The notes below the pieces were generated by a model, which ran no database searches, was not told where the DNA came from, and saw only the letters and a program-made list of their open reading frames with translations. From assembly GCA_013824715.1 (NCBI GenBank), contig PNOH01000005.1, positions 1 through 64,000 of the forward strand: a DNA stretch of 64,000 nt, read 5' to 3'. The DNA comes from Odoribacter sp. (GTDB lineage: Bacteria > Bacteroidota > Bacteroidia > Bacteroidales > Prolixibacteraceae). Shown here in pieces: positions 20,313 to 55,113 of this stretch. Numbering within the stretch: position 1 is the first letter of the stretch; every line of letters begins with the position of its first letter. Made by a program: the position numbers and the translations under genes.

Positions 20313-20684
20313 ATGGAAAAACACATTAATGTAGTTGCCGCCCTTCAAATTGGTCTTAGTATTTTCAACTTATTTATTGCTTTTCTGATTTTTACTGTTC
20401 TTAAATTAGTCGGTGGATTTGTAGATGAACCCAATGCAGGAACGATTCTTTCAATAATTGCTGATGTTCTTGCAATCGTTTTCATCCTTATATCTGTGCC
20501 GGGTATATTAGCCGGAATGGGTCTTTACAAAAGGAAGGAATGGGCCCGGATTTTGACACTGATTCTTTCTGTTATTGAAATTTTCAGTTTCCCTTTCGGA
20601 ACAGCCATCGGGATTTATTCCATTTGGGCATTGATTCAACCGGAAACAGTTGCCGCTTTCGGGAATATTCCTCCAGTGAAATAA
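20313..20684 (+). CDS. Small multi-TM membrane protein, unknown function
   Basis: 123 aa hydrophobic with 3-4 predicted TM segments. Confidence 0.6.
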   Translation: MEKHINVVAALQIGLSIFNLFIAFLIFTVLKLVGGFVDEPNAGTILSIIADVLAIVFILISVPGILAGMGLYKRKEWARILTLILSVIEIFSFPFGTAIGIYSIWALIQPETVAAFGNIPPVK

Positions 20685-20762
20685 AAAATTTCGAATAAGA
20701 AATAAGAAACACGAAGTAGCCATTCCTGATTTCATATTTCTCGTTTCTTGTTCGATATTTTA
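20685..20762. repeat. Imperfect inverted word repeat (GAATAAGAAATAAGAAAC...GTTTCTTGTTCGATATTTTA)
   Basis: Arms related by inversion; homologous to 24215-24298. Confidence 0.7.
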
Positions 20763-24209: not shown

Positions 24210-24214
24210 GATGA

Positions 24215-24298
24215 AATATTGAATAAGGAACAAGAAATAAGAAATGAGTAACGGGTTATTCCTGATTTCTGGTTTCTTATTCGATGTTCCTTATTTTT
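24215..24298. repeat. Imperfect inverted word repeat, homologous to 20685-20762
   Basis: GAATAAGGAACAAGAAATAAGAAATGAG / GGTTTCTTATTCGATGTTCCTTATTT; shares ATTCCTGATTTC core with 20.7-kb copy. Confidence 0.75.
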
Positions 24299-42125: not shown

Positions 42126-42147
42126 GAACACAGATGACACAGATTAA
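42126..42147. repeat. ACACAGATGACACAGATTAA word repeat overlapping fcl stop codon
   Basis: GAACACAGATGACACAGATTAA; tandem ACACAGAT words. Confidence 0.6.
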
Positions 42148-43316
42148 ACTAATATTTGTTGGTTTAAGTACCAGTTATACATTTTTTGAATACCGTATTC
42201 AATTTCAATTTTGTGATGCCAGCCCAGGGAGTGCAGTTTGCTTACATCGGTTAGTTTGCGCATGGTGCCATCGGGTTTTGAAGTGTTGAACACCAGGCTG
42301 CCTTTGAACCCAATGGTCTCTTTTATTAGTTCAGCCAGTGCTTGAATGCTGATTTCTTTTCCTGTGCCAATGTTGATGTGGGTGTTGCGGGTTTCTTTTG
42401 TTAGTGCGTCATTGCGAGAGAGCGTAGGGAACGAAGCAATCTTCTCGCGAACAGATTGCTTCACTTCGTTCGCAATGACGTGCTGGAAGTCGATGTTCTC
42501 CATGATGAAGACACAGGCGTCGGCCATCTCTTCACTCCAAAGGAATTCGCGCATGGGTGCGCCGGAGCCCCAGATTTCGACAGAATAGCCCCCCTCAATC
42601 CCCCCAGACGGGGGGAAGATGCCGTATTTCTGCAATTTCTGCAAAATATCTTCAGGTGCGCTATTGCCATTAATATCTTCAATGGGCCGCCTGTTCAGGT
42701 CTTCATGAAGAGCATCCCAGTTATTTTCTTCGAGACATTTTCCGAGATACATTTTCCGGAGCATGGCTGGCAGAACATGGGAGGTTTCGAGGTTGAAATT
42801 ATCATTAGGGCCGTATAGGTTTGTTGGCATTACCGAAATAAAGTTTGTGCCGTATTGAATATTATAGCTCTCACATAGTTTAATCCCGGCAATTTTTGCA
42901 ATGGCATAAGGTTCGTTGGTATATTCCAGTGGCGATGTCAATAAGTACCCCTCCTTCATGGGTTGTGGTGCGTCACGAGGATAGATGCATGTACTTCCGA
43001 GGAAAAGGAGTTTCTTAACTTTATTCAAATAGGCTGCATGTATTACATTATTTTGAATCATCAGGTTTTCGTAAATGAACTGACCCCGATAAGTATTATT
43101 GGCAACAATACCACCTACTTTGGCAGCCGCAAGGATGACATACCCGGGTTTTTCGGCTTCAAAGAATTGATTGACGGCTTTGGTGTCCATCAGATCCAAT
43201 TCGTTGATGGTTTTTCCGATCAGATTGATATAGCCTTTCGATTGAAGGGTTTTCCAAAGGGCAGAGCCTACAAGGCCAAGATGCCCGGCGACATATATTT
43301 TAGAGTTCTTGTTCAT
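42144..43316 (-). CDS. fcl: GDP-L-fucose synthase (with two in-frame repeat-derived insertions)
   Basis: KIYVAGHLGLVGSALWKTLQ; FLGSTCIYPRDAPQPMKE; HINIGTGKEISIQALAE; start at MNKNSK. Confidence 0.95.
   Translation of the reverse strand: MNKNSKIYVAGHLGLVGSALWKTLQSKGYINLIGKTINELDLMDTKAVNQFFEAEKPGYVILAAAKVGGIVANNTYRGQFIYENLMIQNNVIHAAYLNKVKKLLFLGSTCIYPRDAPQPMKEGYLLTSPLEYTNEPYAIAKIAGIKLCESYNIQYGTNFISVMPTNLYGPNDNFNLETSHVLPAMLRKMYLGKCLEENNWDALHEDLNRRPIEDINGNSAPEDILQKLQKYGIFPPSGGIEGGYSVEIWGSGAPMREFLWSEEMADACVFIMENIDFQHVIANEVKQSVREKIASFPTLSRNDALTKETRNTHINIGTGKEISIQALAELIKETIGFKGSLVFNTSKPDGTMRKLTDVSKLHSLGWHHKIEIEYGIQKMYNWYLNQQILV
42407..42480. repeat. Palindromic repeat (GTCATTGCGA...GCAATGACG family) inside fcl
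   Basis: 10-bp terminal inverted repeats CGTCATTGCG/CGCAATGACG plus nested GAAGCAATCT/AGATTGCTTC. Confidence 0.92.
42588..42618. repeat. Palindromic C/G-run repeat inside fcl (CCCCCCTCAATCCCCCCAGACGGGGGGAAG)
   Basis: CCCCCC-AGAC-GGGGGG hairpin; encodes FPPSGGIEGGY. Confidence 0.85.
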
Positions 43317-43329
43317 ATTTTTTGTTTGT

Positions 43330-43357
43330 CCACAAATTACACGAATAAACACGAATT
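43330..43357. repeat. Left inverted flank of GxxExxY gene
   Basis: CCACAAATTACACGAATAAACACGAAT; 24/27 to reverse complement of 43750-43776. Confidence 0.85.
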
Positions 43358-43359
43358 TA

Positions 43360-43737
43360 TTATCTAATGACACGTTTCCATTCGAGGCTGGTTCCTCCAA
43401 AATTGATTAAAAGACCAAGTCTAAAGCCAGTTGCTTTCAGATAATTAAGCACCTGACTGATATGAGTTGGACTTAATTCACTAACTGCTTTTAGTTCAAC
43501 GATAATTTTACTGTAACAGATAAAATCCGGAATATATTCCTTTTCCAGAATCTTATCCTTATACCTTATTTGTAACGGGTACTCCCTGACCGAAGGAATA
43601 TTTTGCAGTTCGAATTCATATTCCAATGCTTCCTGATAGACCGCTTCTAAAAATCCGTTTCCCAATTGATTATGAACCTCTATGCAGGCCTTGATAATGG
43701 TAAAATTTTCTTCCTTGTAAAGGATTGTCTCATTCAT
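43360..43737 (-). CDS. GxxExxY protein (PD-(D/E)XK superfamily)
   Basis: [13 protein letters not shown] (GxxExxY) and [16 protein letters not shown] (PD...ELK). Confidence 0.93.
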
Positions 43738-43747
43738 TATAAAATGA

Positions 43748-43776
43748 TTATTCGTGTAAATTCGTGTAATTCGTGG
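43748..43776. repeat. Right inverted flank of GxxExxY gene
   Basis: TTATTCGTGTAAATTCGTGTAATTCGTGG. Confidence 0.85.
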
Positions 43777-43782
43777 ATGAAA

Positions 43783-44973
43783 TTATTCGAAATAATTAAG
43801 TGTCCGATACCCCCCCTCGCGCAACCAGGCCTCTTTTTGCATCAGTTTAATGTCCGACTGCATCATCTCCTCAACAAGTCCTTTTAAGTCATACCCGGGT
43901 TTCCAGCCTAGTATTGTATTCGCCTTTGTTGGGTCGCCAATCAGCAGATCAACTTCGGTAGGACGGAAGTATATTGGGTCAACTGACACGATTACCCCGT
44001 CATTCCGGCGAAGGCCGGAATCTCCTCTTTCAAAGCTAATGCGATTCTTGATTCCCTCCAAATATTGCTCTCCAACTTTTTCACCGAAGAGTTTTTCATC
44101 CACTGACATCAGGTAACCTTTTTCGTCAGCTCCTTCGCCTGTGAAACTTATTTCCAGCCCTATTTCGGCGGCAGCTAACTTGATAAAATCGCGTATGGTA
44201 GTGGTAATCCCTGTTGCAATCACATAATCATCGGGTTGTTCTTGTTGAAGCATTAGGTACATGGCGCGGATATAGTCTTTCGCATGGCCCCAGTCGCGTT
44301 TGCTCGAAAGATTGCCCATAAAGACTTTATCCTGCATACCAAGTGCTATACGGCTTAAAGCACGGGTTACTTTACGGGTTACAAATGTCTCTCCACGGAT
44401 TGGCGATTCGTGATTAAACAGAATTCCGTTGCTGGCGTGCATTTTATAGGCTTCGCGGTAGTTTACCGTAATCCAGTAAGCGTACATTTTTGCCACAGCA
44501 TAAGGCGAACGGGGATAAAAAGGAGTTCTTTCGCTTTGGGGAACTTCCTGAACCATACCGTACAACTCCGATGTTGAAGCCTGATATATCCGTGTTTTTT
44601 CTGTTAGCCCCAACAAGCGTACTGCTTCCAGAATACGAAGTGTTCCCAGGCCGTCAGCATTGGCTACATATTCGGGAGTTTCGAAACTAACTGCTACATG
44701 GCTCATGGCAGCCAGATTATATATTTCATTGGGCTGAACTTCCTGGATGATACGCGTAATATTCATACTGTCGGTAAGGTCGCCGTAATGGAGAATTAGA
44801 TTCCGGTTGTCAACATGCGGATCCTGGTAAAGGTGATCAATACGATCCGTATTAAAAGAGGATGCACGCCGTTTGATACCGTGTACCAGGTACCCTTTTT
44901 TAATCAGGAATTCGGCGAGGTAGGCACCGTCTTGTCCGGTGATGCCGGTGATGAGTGCTATTTTTTGTATCAT
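43783..44973 (-). CDS. gmd: GDP-mannose 4,6-dehydratase (with in-frame repeat-derived insertion)
   Basis: [71 protein letters not shown]. Confidence 0.96.
43996..44025. repeat. Palindromic repeat CCCGTCATTCCGGCGAAGGCCGGAATCTCC inside gmd
   Basis: 8-bp stem ATTCCGGC/GCCGGAAT, GAAG loop. Confidence 0.93.
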
Positions 44974-45070
44974 GGTAATTGTTTTCGAGTTCTTACTGAA
45001 AATCAATTGGAGAAATTTTAAAAAAAATCTTTGTAAATAAAGGGAGGATCAGTTTAAAGTTGGTATTTAA

Positions 45071-47404: not shown

Positions 47405-47409
47405 AATAA

Positions 47410-47492
47410 ATACGAATTACGCGAATTTTAACGAATTACACGAATTAAAAAATCAGTGGTCATCCGTAACATCAGTGTTATCTGTGTACTAA
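47410..47492. repeat. Composite intergenic repeat copy A
   Basis: ATACGAATTACGCGAATTTTAACGAATTACACGAATTAAAAAATCAGTGGTCATCCGTAACATCAGTGTTATCTGTGTACTAA. Confidence 0.85.
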
Positions 47493-47496
47493 TTGT

Positions 47497-48636
47497 TTAT
47501 ACTTTTTCGAAATAGGTGTCCGGATCATTCGCATCAAAATGCTCGTTGATCCAGAAAATGGTGTATAATTCTTCTTCGCCAATATTGGTGATGTTGTGGG
47601 TGTACCAAACGGGCATATCCACAAACGATGGTTCGTTGCCATCCAGATCAAAAGATAATATTATATCCGTCCCAATGCGTCGGAGTTCAATTCTGGCTTT
47701 GCCTTTGATTACTGCAAACCTTTCAACCTTATGTGTGTGAAAATGATTTCCTCTGGTTATTCCCGGAATAGTTGTAGAAAAAGAAACCTGACCTCCACTG
47801 TTTAGTTTGACTGTTTCAACAAACGAACCTCGATCATCGGTATTCAATTTTAGTTTGAATGGATAGAAAGCGGAGTGGTTGATGTAAGTTAAAAAAGTTG
47901 TAAATAAATCCCTTTTTAAAGGTGTGTCTAATGAAGGTATTTCTCCCTTTTCAAAATAATCTGCTTTGAACGATTCCAGGATCTTTAGTAAACTAGAAAC
48001 ATTTAATTCTATAGTATGCTGAATGGTGATTTCTTCGATTACACAATCGTTGGAGTGATTAGCGCTAATAAGCTCAATCCTTTCGATAAAATGATTTACC
48101 AATTGTGATACATAAATCAGTTTGACCTCACCATTAATTTCAATTTTGGGTGTTTCGTTGTGGGTTAACTGATGACAAAAGGTAGCTATTACAGAATTAT
48201 AGTATGGATTTCCGAAAGGTCCAAATACATTGGGAATTATGAAACCGGAAAATTGTGCTGAATTTTTATTGGCCCATTGTTCAAGTAGTTTTCTCCCTTC
48301 TTTCTTTGATTTTCCATACAAGTTGTCGCGTTCTTCCTGGGTGCTCGATGAAAACAGGATGTGTGGCGTGGAGCTGGTTGCTTCACAGGCAGCAATTAGC
48401 TGTTTAACGAGTCCAATATTGGTTTGAAAAAGTACCTCGGGATCGTTGTGACGATTCATGGCTGCAAGATGAACCACGGCATCACAATTTTGTACAAACG
48501 CTTTCAGTTTATCTTCATCCGAAAAGAATGCATCTTCAAAAGGGATTCGTTCAAATCTATCGGGATATAATCCAAGGGTGTTGTATAGATGGGTTCCTAC
48601 AAAACCTGACTGACCGGTTATTCCTATTCTAATCAT
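47497..48636 (-). CDS. CapF/FnlB-like bifunctional SDR-cupin reductase/epimerase
   Basis: IGITGQSGFVGTHLYN; C-terminal cupin TRGNHFHTHKVERFAVIKGKARI. Confidence 0.93.
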   Translation of the reverse strand: MIRIGITGQSGFVGTHLYNTLGLYPDRFERIPFEDAFFSDEDKLKAFVQNCDAVVHLAAMNRHNDPEVLFQTNIGLVKQLIAACEATSSTPHILFSSSTQEERDNLYGKSKKEGRKLLEQWANKNSAQFSGFIIPNVFGPFGNPYYNSVIATFCHQLTHNETPKIEINGEVKLIYVSQLVNHFIERIELISANHSNDCVIEEITIQHTIELNVSSLLKILESFKADYFEKGEIPSLDTPLKRDLFTTFLTYINHSAFYPFKLKLNTDDRGSFVETVKLNSGGQVSFSTTIPGITRGNHFHTHKVERFAVIKGKARIELRRIGTDIILSFDLDGNEPSFVDMPVWYTHNITNIGEEELYTIFWINEHFDANDPDTYFEKV

Positions 48637-48644
48637 ATTTTGAA

Positions 48645-48727
48645 ATTACGAATTGCACGAATTTAAACGAATTTAACGAACTAAAAGATCAGTGATCATC
48701 TGTAAAATCAGTGTTATCTTTGTTCTA
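48645..48727. repeat. Composite intergenic repeat copy B, homologous to copy A
   Basis: TTACGAATTGCACGAATTTAAACGAATTTAACGAACTAAAAGATCAGTGATCATCTGTAAAATCAGTGTTATCTTTGTTCTAA; ungapped alignment to copy A with ~13 mismatches by hand. Confidence 0.85.
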
Positions 48728-48731
48728 AATG

Positions 48732-49181
48732 TTATTTGTGTTCCAATATTTCATCCCAGTCCAACCACCAACCAGAAGGAAAATGTTTCTTTTCATTGTC
48801 CGAATCTTTGAGGTTCATGTCAGAGAAGATCATAAGCTCCGAGTTGGCTTCTAAAGCTTTTAATCCGTTGGCATATCCTTTGGGAACAGAAATGATTTCA
48901 CTATTTTCTGCTGAAAGGATATGATATTCCGGAATTAAATCTTTGGAGGGATTCTCAAAGTCATCAATCTTAACCCAGGCAACAACGAAACTACCTGAAA
49001 TAGGATAGAAGTATTTTTTCTCGAACTGGTGACCCTGCCAGGCACGAACAACGGAGGTGTCAGGATGTTTAATGAAATAGAATCGTTTGATATCATCGAA
49101 CCGGAAATCATTGACAAATCGCATGGTTCCGCGATCATCCGAGAATATACCTCCTTCAATTATTTTTGGTTTTTCTTTCAT
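48732..49181 (-). CDS. Cupin-type sugar epimerase (dTDP-4-dehydrorhamnose 3,5-epimerase / WxcM-like)
   Basis: RGTMRFVNDF; VRAWQGHQFEKKYFYPISGSFVVAWVKID; VPKGYANGLKAL. Confidence 0.75.
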   Translation of the reverse strand: MKEKPKIIEGGIFSDDRGTMRFVNDFRFDDIKRFYFIKHPDTSVVRAWQGHQFEKKYFYPISGSFVVAWVKIDDFENPSKDLIPEYHILSAENSEIISVPKGYANGLKALEANSELMIFSDMNLKDSDNEKKHFPSGWWLDWDEILEHK

Positions 49182-49187
49182 AGTAAA

Positions 49188-49220
49188 CGTATTTCACGAA
49201 TAAAAGCGTATTTCACGAAT
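49188..49220. repeat. Perfect 14-bp direct repeat CGTATTTCACGAAT, 19-bp period
   Basis: 49188-49201 and 49207-49220. Confidence 0.9.
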
Positions 49221-49241
49221 TTTCAATCTGGGTCCTATTCC

Positions 49242-51098: not shown

Positions 51099-51111
51099 TT
51101 TTTAGAGGTTA

Positions 51112-51160
51112 GGAGGTTGAAACGGGTTGAGAAGGTGAGAGGTTAAGAAGTTAAGAGGTT
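51112..51160. repeat. Tandem word repeat GAGGTTAA/GAAGTTAA
   Basis: AGGAGGTTGAAACGGGTTGAGAAGGTGAGAGGTTAAGAAGTTAAGAGGTTA. Confidence 0.85.
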
Positions 51161-51161
51161 A

Positions 51162-54309: not shown

Positions 54310-55050
54310 TTAAGAAATATAACTTTGAAATGTATTAAAAAGGTTTTTTTCAAAAGAATTTTTAAACTCAGGTATTTCTTTATTTTCAATGTATATATTT
54401 TTGAATGATTTCAATATTAGAAGCACATTAGATACGGTTTGATATGAAGTTGGATCAACTTTATAGTATGCTGAATTTGTTTTATTTGAAATGGCTTCAA
54501 TTATAATATGCATAGCTTCAGAAACATAAAGCAACTCCATTTCTCTGTCTATTTCAATTTTTGGAGTATCGTTGTGTATAATTTGATGACAAAATGTAGC
54601 AATAAATGATGCATAATATGGTTTACAAAACGGGCCAAAAATATTGGGGAAAATAAAACCTGTAAAAAGGCAACCATTGTTTTTACTCCATTTTGCCAGT
54701 AATTCTCTTCCCTCCTTCTTAGATCTGGCATAGGGAAAATCCATATCTTCTTGTACAGATGAAGAATACAATATATGTGCCTTACTATTTACTTTTTCTA
54801 AAGCACAGATTAGCTTTTTAACAAGATCCATATTTGTAGTATAAACAACATTGGGATCTGGTGCGCGACTCATAGCAGCAAAATGAACCACAACATCACA
54901 TAAAGAGGCGAAGTGAACTAATTTGGTTTCATCATTAAAATAATCATCATAGAACGGCACAAGTTCATACTTATCCTTGTAAAGATTGATCGTATTATAT
55001 AAGTTTTGACCCAGAAAACCTGCCTGACCTGTAATTCCAACTTTAATCAT
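54310..55050 (-). CDS. CapF-like SDR paralogue lacking the cupin domain
   Basis: KVGITGQAGFLGQNLYNTINLY...ARSKKEGRELLAKWSKNNG; colinear with 47497-48636 N-terminus and ends at domain boundary. Confidence 0.85.
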   Translation of the reverse strand: MIKVGITGQAGFLGQNLYNTINLYKDKYELVPFYDDYFNDETKLVHFASLCDVVVHFAAMSRAPDPNVVYTTNMDLVKKLICALEKVNSKAHILYSSSVQEDMDFPYARSKKEGRELLAKWSKNNGCLFTGFIFPNIFGPFCKPYYASFIATFCHQIIHNDTPKIEIDREMELLYVSEAMHIIIEAISNKTNSAYYKVDPTSYQTVSNVLLILKSFKNIYIENKEIPEFKNSFEKNLFNTFQSYIS

Positions 55051-55113
55051 ATATCTGTTTTTATTATAATTTTGAGTTTCACGCAAAGAGTTTTAATAAT
55101 TGACATTACTATA

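Follow-up and report, generated by a model that had tools for sequence, protein, structure and literature searches.

RAYTs (TnpA_REP) are Y1 HUH tyrosine transposases that act on hairpins. Homing endonucleases, of which I-Ssp6803I is an example of a free-standing PD-(D/E)XK enzyme, have single unique sites in conserved genes. The described S23/IVP element sits within a 23S rRNA gene, and in Coxiella it is RNase III that removes the S23 intervening sequence from the 23S rRNA (PMC4990558).

The elements considered here, in which a GxxExxY gene is accompanied by arrays of short words, are somewhat like a REP/RAYT system or a homing element, yet they fail the defining tests of REP/RAYT and of CRISPR. 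As with REP/RAYT, there are many small intergenic repeats, one or a few copies hold a small-nuclease gene between inverted repeats, and the repeat type follows the protein clade. However, GxxExxY is a PD-(D/E)XK protein and not a Y1 HUH protein, and its units are multi-word arrays with folding z near 0 and no dyad covariation. The likeness to homing endonucleases lies in a small PD-(D/E)XK gene that sits within a sequence its product may recognize, in related empty and filled alleles at one site (the junction between two ABC-transporter genes, hereafter the ABC–ABC junction), and in a manner of spread, by break and repair, that would fit these elements. Unlike homing sites, the GxxExxY arrays are dispersed, degenerate and at non-allelic intergenic sites, and cutting is putative. 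The protein shares its fold and its (D/E)xK and QxxxY motifs with Cas4 and RecB, and the copy at locus L032 gives a weak match to the Cas4 profile (E = 1e-4), but it has no conserved Fe-S cysteines, is ~125 aa long and lies outside cas loci here. MITEs are likewise short gene-less units with inverted ends that are related to gene-bearing copies, whereas GxxExxY units have no DDE transposase, and their arms are internally repetitive and composed of degenerate words. These words, of 7-8 nt with gaps of 2-4 nt, also contrast with the identical repeats and constant ~30-nt unique spacers of CRISPR. S23/IVP is similar in being a small ORF on a selfish element; its genes in the genome studied here have locus-specific word arrays, and one S23/IVP gene occupies the same ABC–ABC site. 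It differs in that its four-helix-bundle protein is unrelated to GxxExxY and its words are wholly different.

The window, by which we mean the whole 64,000-nt stretch of DNA analysed, contains two composite repeats on either side of a capF-like gene, copies A and B (Table 1). An earlier note had placed them and counted about 13 differences between them, and both the positions and the count were confirmed. The two copies are 84% identical over 90 nt in an ungapped alignment, lie in direct orientation with a start-to-start distance of 1236 nt, and match each other with a BLAST E-value of 3.5e-22 in a whole-genome search. The exact composite has two full copies in the 4.6-Mb genome, and the weaker matches are all partial; arrays of the same type in other spellings are present elsewhere in the genome. 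On the minus strand, which is the operon's strand at both sites, the left arm reads CACAGAT-AA-CACTGAT-GTTA-CGGAT-GAC-CACTGATT and is followed by a short loop, after which the right arm reads AATTCGTG-TA-ATTCGTT-AAA-ATTCGCG-TA-ATTCGTA. Each unit has eight words, some of them degenerate, at steps of 9-10 bp: four CACNRAT words make up the left arm, and four reversed words, of the AATTCGTG type, make up the right arm. Because each copy consists of four words, a loop and four reversed words, the two-part architecture recognized in the earlier note is that of two convergent arms facing each other. The note had also favoured a dispersed composite family over chance similarity or a recently duplicated capF, and this agrees with the occurrence of the same architecture at GxxExxY loci in many phyla. 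A recent duplication of capF was ruled out, since the spacers of a second capF-like ORF are free of such arrays. Two further proposals did not find support. Clean deletion of capF by recombination between A and B is not favoured by the longest exact run that they share, which is ~13 nt by eye, and a role in RNA processing or termination is not favoured by folding, in which A and B did no better than shuffled sequence on either strand (z = +0.28 and +0.35 on the minus strand), or by an Rfam search of the window, in which only a tRNA matched.

Table 1. Coordinates of the word arrays and associated genes in the window.
Feature	Position	Strand	Remarks
Copy A, gene-less 4+4 word unit	47408..47497	-	between capF and capG (UDP-GlcNAc 2-epimerase)
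Copy B, gene-less 4+4 word unit	48644..48733	-	between FdtA-like gene and capF
CapF-like gene between A and B	47497..48636	-	Epimerase + Polysacc_synt_C domains
GxxExxY gene, 125 aa	43360..43737	-	TIGR04256 / PF13366 PDDEXK_3; predicted RecB/Cas4-like nuclease
Array on 5' side of GxxExxY gene (ATTCGTGTAAATTCGTGTAATTCGTGG)	43748..43778	.	
Array on 3' side of GxxExxY gene (CCACAAATTACACGAATAAACACGAATT)	43330..43357	.	inverted with respect to the 5' array
Half array (ACACAGATGACACAGA) in spacer adjoining Fcl gene	42126..42143	.	
Partial array (ACGTATTTCACGAATAAAAGCGTATTTCACGAATTT) between FdtA-like gene and capE	49187..49225	.	

The GxxExxY gene of the window, which marks the one element there with its gene in place, scores 148.7 bits against TIGR04256, for which the curated cut-off is 35. 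Genome searches gave seven such genes in the window's own genome, with arrays on both sides in 7/7 and with the spellings CACGAATT, CACAGATT, CACAGAG, CACGAAG/CACAAAG and CACTAAG/CACTGAG. The same arrays, with few exceptions, accompany 80 named loci in Bacteroidota, Planctomycetota, Chloroflexota, Acidobacteriota, Proteobacteria, Verrucomicrobiota, Cyanobacteria, Omnitrophota and other phyla; the contig scan used a clade-II alignment, so these loci are biased toward that clade. For counting, CRCNRA with G or TT after it was taken as a word and was sought in 200-bp flanks of 149 distinct GxxExxY loci; the first ~37 loci, which are within the 149, were read before the definition was framed, and those added later are independent of it. 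The flanks held 6.7 words on average, versus 1.03 for control windows (5399 pairs, taken from the same loci), and at least three words were found at 133 of the 149 loci, versus 9.8% of control windows. Per 100 bp, GxxExxY flanks contained 2.28 words, other intergenic spacers 0.46 and other ORFs 0.24. Some GxxExxY genes, chiefly those of the GNGFQEVIYQRAL clade, had no recognizable words under this definition. Agreement between flanks did not depend on the choice of words: local alignment of each flank with the reverse complement of the opposite one scored 21.0, versus 11.6 between loci, and the same alphabet-free test on other ORFs gave 11.4 versus 9.8. The association between gene and array is thus observed across phyla, and it is strong.

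The arms have a regular internal design. Words run mainly forward upstream of the gene (264 plus, 92 minus) and mainly backward downstream of it (92 plus, 277 minus) over the 149 loci, so that the arms converge, and the two sides share a dialect in 125 of the loci. From one word to the next the step is 9-10 bp, with further spacing peaks at 21 and 31, and intact arms mostly follow steps of 10-11-10 or 9-11-9. The ideal arm comprises four words of 7-8 nt (CRC-N-R-A plus G or TT) at steps of ~10, 11 and 10 bp, a phasing that places the words on one face of the duplex. The inverted termini of the units have a common outer TTTAAC edge. At two loci (L202 and L211) array units stand in tandem, as ~115-120 bp repeats with four to five copies in a row.

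The spelling of the words follows the protein. The AG and ATT dialects could be placed on the tree of the 149 proteins with 3 changes, and 0 of 500 shuffles gave so low a number. The correspondence extends into the AG clade, where proteins that are further apart also differ more in word usage (Mantel r = 0.31, p = 0.001; 0.30 after GC). Both dialects co-occur in one genome, each beside the matching protein, which shows that host composition does not explain dialect. The arms of one unit are more similar to each other than arms of different units are (0.756 versus 0.561). In 59 AG units, however, dyad partners at variable positions were identical at 0.753 and non-partners at 0.757, and a hairpin or cruciform constraint was rejected for lack of covariation. 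The comparison of dyad partners with non-partners points to recognition of individual duplex words and not of a hairpin.

The arrays also depend on the gene at the level of whole genomes. Of 148 genomes sampled in the phylum, 74 carry GxxExxY, in up to 12 copies. Exact tandem CACAGAG pairs occur in 37/74 genomes with GxxExxY and in 2/74 without it (Fisher p = 1e-11), and the effect is present both within the window's class and outside it; pairs of the ATT dialect (CACGAATT) occur in 11 genomes with the gene and in 1 without. Arrays outnumber genes in some genomes, the example being G025 with 80 CACGAATT-pair matches and 4 genes. Eight plasmid records hold GxxExxY, while 0 of 50,697 phage records match it. 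A phage origin was rejected on this result, which offers no phage route for horizontal carriage and so counts against the explanation that we prefer.

The predicted structure of the protein is compatible with a nuclease. The AF2 model, from structure prediction on sequences other than those of plasmid records, has a pLDDT of 96, and its nearest solved fold is SSO0001, a Cas4 protein (4ic1), followed by LHK-Exo; the Foldseek match is distant (TM ~0.6), and a search of the PDB by sequence gave no match. Residues E31, D71, E81 and K83 are invariant and Q95 and Y99 nearly so, a set that we take to fit the PD-(D/E)XK plus QxxxY pattern of RecB/Cas4 nucleases; no cysteine is found among the invariant or nearly invariant columns. 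From the model and these residues, GxxExxY is predicted to be a minimal RecB/Cas4-type nuclease. Reading frames of 883-896 residues with a GxxExxY domain occur in four genomes (G054, G026, G038 and G163). In the one examined, L173, the domain and a RecQ helicase form one in-frame fusion, and the upstream spacer of that locus has no word array. This natural fusion favours DNA as the probable substrate of GxxExxY.

Sites orthologous to those of A and B change their content among relatives. At the site of copy B, a GxxExxY gene lies directly upstream of capF in L217, L222, L223 and L224, and also in L218 and L228, and the genes of these six relatives belong to differing clades and have differing words. 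At the site of copy A, a gene-less unit alone was seen in relatives; in the sister genome G300 (L217) it is a 4+4 unit with the same architecture and different words, and its left arm differs from that of copy A almost solely at the fourth base of each word. No scar of the capF deletions that the earlier note proposed to look for was seen, and relatives show turnover of GxxExxY elements at the junction instead. The ABC–ABC junction, where L032 carries a GxxExxY gene in the window's own genome, displays a series of presence-absence states. It is full in L032 and L266 (genomes G000 and G311, of the same genus), carries an internally deleted gene in L259 (G300), is gene-less with an AG left arm and an ATT right arm in L253, L254 and L256 (G315, G308 and G314), is empty with spacers of 13-20 nt in L251, L258 and L268 (G302, G313 and G310), and holds an S23/IVP gene or its remains in L261, L260 and L267 (G305, G306 and G307). 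An internal deletion of a GxxExxY gene is also seen at L199. Near the site, empty and filled alleles are 15-20% divergent, too far apart to place element boundaries or a target-site duplication. In other congeners (L263, L264, L265 and L269) the same junction has a third repeat family (GAAGCCCCTCTAAATCTCCCCGAAGGGGAGA...GGGGGAGGCT). Given the turnover of genes and arrays at the capF and ABC–ABC sites, the best reading of A and B is as chimeric units without a gene, lying at sites where elements come and go.

We therefore propose, with a probability of roughly 0.6, that A and B represent the gene-less form of GxxExxY mobile elements, in which a nuclease gene lies between convergent word arms. 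The full element would consist of a gene for a ~125-aa PD-(D/E)XK (RecB/Cas4-like) nuclease between two such arms. As for the mode of movement, we infer that the nuclease, probably in multimeric form, binds duplex DNA at words of its own dialect, and that it breaks or resects DNA at the array. The gene may then be copied into gene-less arrays by repair from a gene-bearing copy, with the arms as homology, in a homing-like manner, and loss of the gene or annealing of arm to arm would leave behind units that lack it and are often chimeric, as in A and B. The arms within A and B belong to two sub-dialects, which makes it uncertain which nuclease acts on them, and this is a point against the proposal.

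A different account, which we consider unlikely, is that the arrays are MITE-like units moved by an unrelated transposase, with GxxExxY as a passenger or a settled parasite. The shared outer TTTAAC edge of the inverted termini, insertion at intergenic sites and the far greater number of gene-less copies than genes in some genomes, G025 among them, speak in its favour. However, no transposase gene is linked to the arrays, the words track the clade of the GxxExxY protein, and arrays are nearly absent from genomes that lack it; moreover, whole arms vary in dialect and in number of words, whereas transposon ends are fixed. Somewhat less probable again is a regulatory or RNA-processing function, with the arrays as GxxExxY operators, attenuators or RNase III sites and the protein as the regulator. 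Arrays do lie in co-directional operon spacers and adjoin start codons, phased four-word arrays do resemble operators, and excision by RNase III has its precedent in the Coxiella S23 intervening sequence (PMC4990558). Against this stand the folding of A and B RNA, which is no better than that of shuffles, the lack of a matching Rfam family, the lack of dyad covariation at variable positions, the turnover of presence, absence and content among congeners at the ABC–ABC site, and the conservation of nuclease residues in GxxExxY. We regard RNA roles for the arrays as unlikely. That A and B merely reflect local duplication together with capF, or a chance likeness of AT-rich spacers, is hardly credible: although A and B alone are full genome copies of the exact composite, their match has the E-value given above, the architecture is common to many phyla, the second capF-like ORF is without arrays, and the G300 unit at the site of copy A has the same architecture in different words.

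The GxxExxY word-array element, taken here as the gene with its convergent arms, is a widespread and apparently undescribed bacterial element. In the open-access literature, to which the search was confined, GxxExxY is named in unrelated papers, and no paper on this element was found; literal array sequences appeared there solely in papers that look unrelated, and PDDEXK_3 gave no paper in the open-access literature. Pfam and NCBIfam give no role for GxxExxY beyond a nuclease superfamily or motif name. The link between gene and repeat gives both the protein and the repeats a testable role, with the likely substrate written beside the gene, and the dialects make the specificity of GxxExxY directly addressable. 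If true, the proposal would explain a large class of intergenic repeats as well as the frequent turnover of spacers in polysaccharide gene clusters. We suggest more tentatively, and at somewhat less than even odds, that helically phased, clade-spelled multi-word arrays recognized by a Cas4-like nuclease, and S23/IVP genes, mostly with different arrays of their own, are two parallel classes of minimal mobile elements, in which case word arrays could be a general means by which tiny genes move or persist in the spaces between bacterial genes.

Several other features were seen in the window and its genome. S23/IVP genes gave 15 matches in the genome (loci L278-L287 among these), and the genes mostly lie between word arrays of their own. 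Their words differ at each copy, e.g. AACAATAGAAAC, CCCGAAAC, AATGGTTA and GCATGGGGC, and flank-to-flank similarity is 21.0 versus 10.8 between loci, with 6/10 above the 95th percentile. An intergenic array at 51099-51161 (AGAGGTTAAGAAGTTAAGAGGTTA) resembles a gene-less array of the S23/IVP kind. Two more related intergenic word-array repeats (AATAAGAAATAAGAAA / TTCTTATTCGATGTTCCTTATT; families D4, D8, I5 and I11) lie at 20677-20761 and 24212-24297. The second capF-like ORF (54310-55086) is without the C-terminal domain and has a stop in the matched frame, and it is likely a capF pseudogene. The Gmd (43783-45006) and Fcl (42144-43400) genes contain in-frame inserts (18 residues; VIANEVKQSVREKIASFPTLSRNDA) that look like palindromic intergenic repeats placed into coding sequence.
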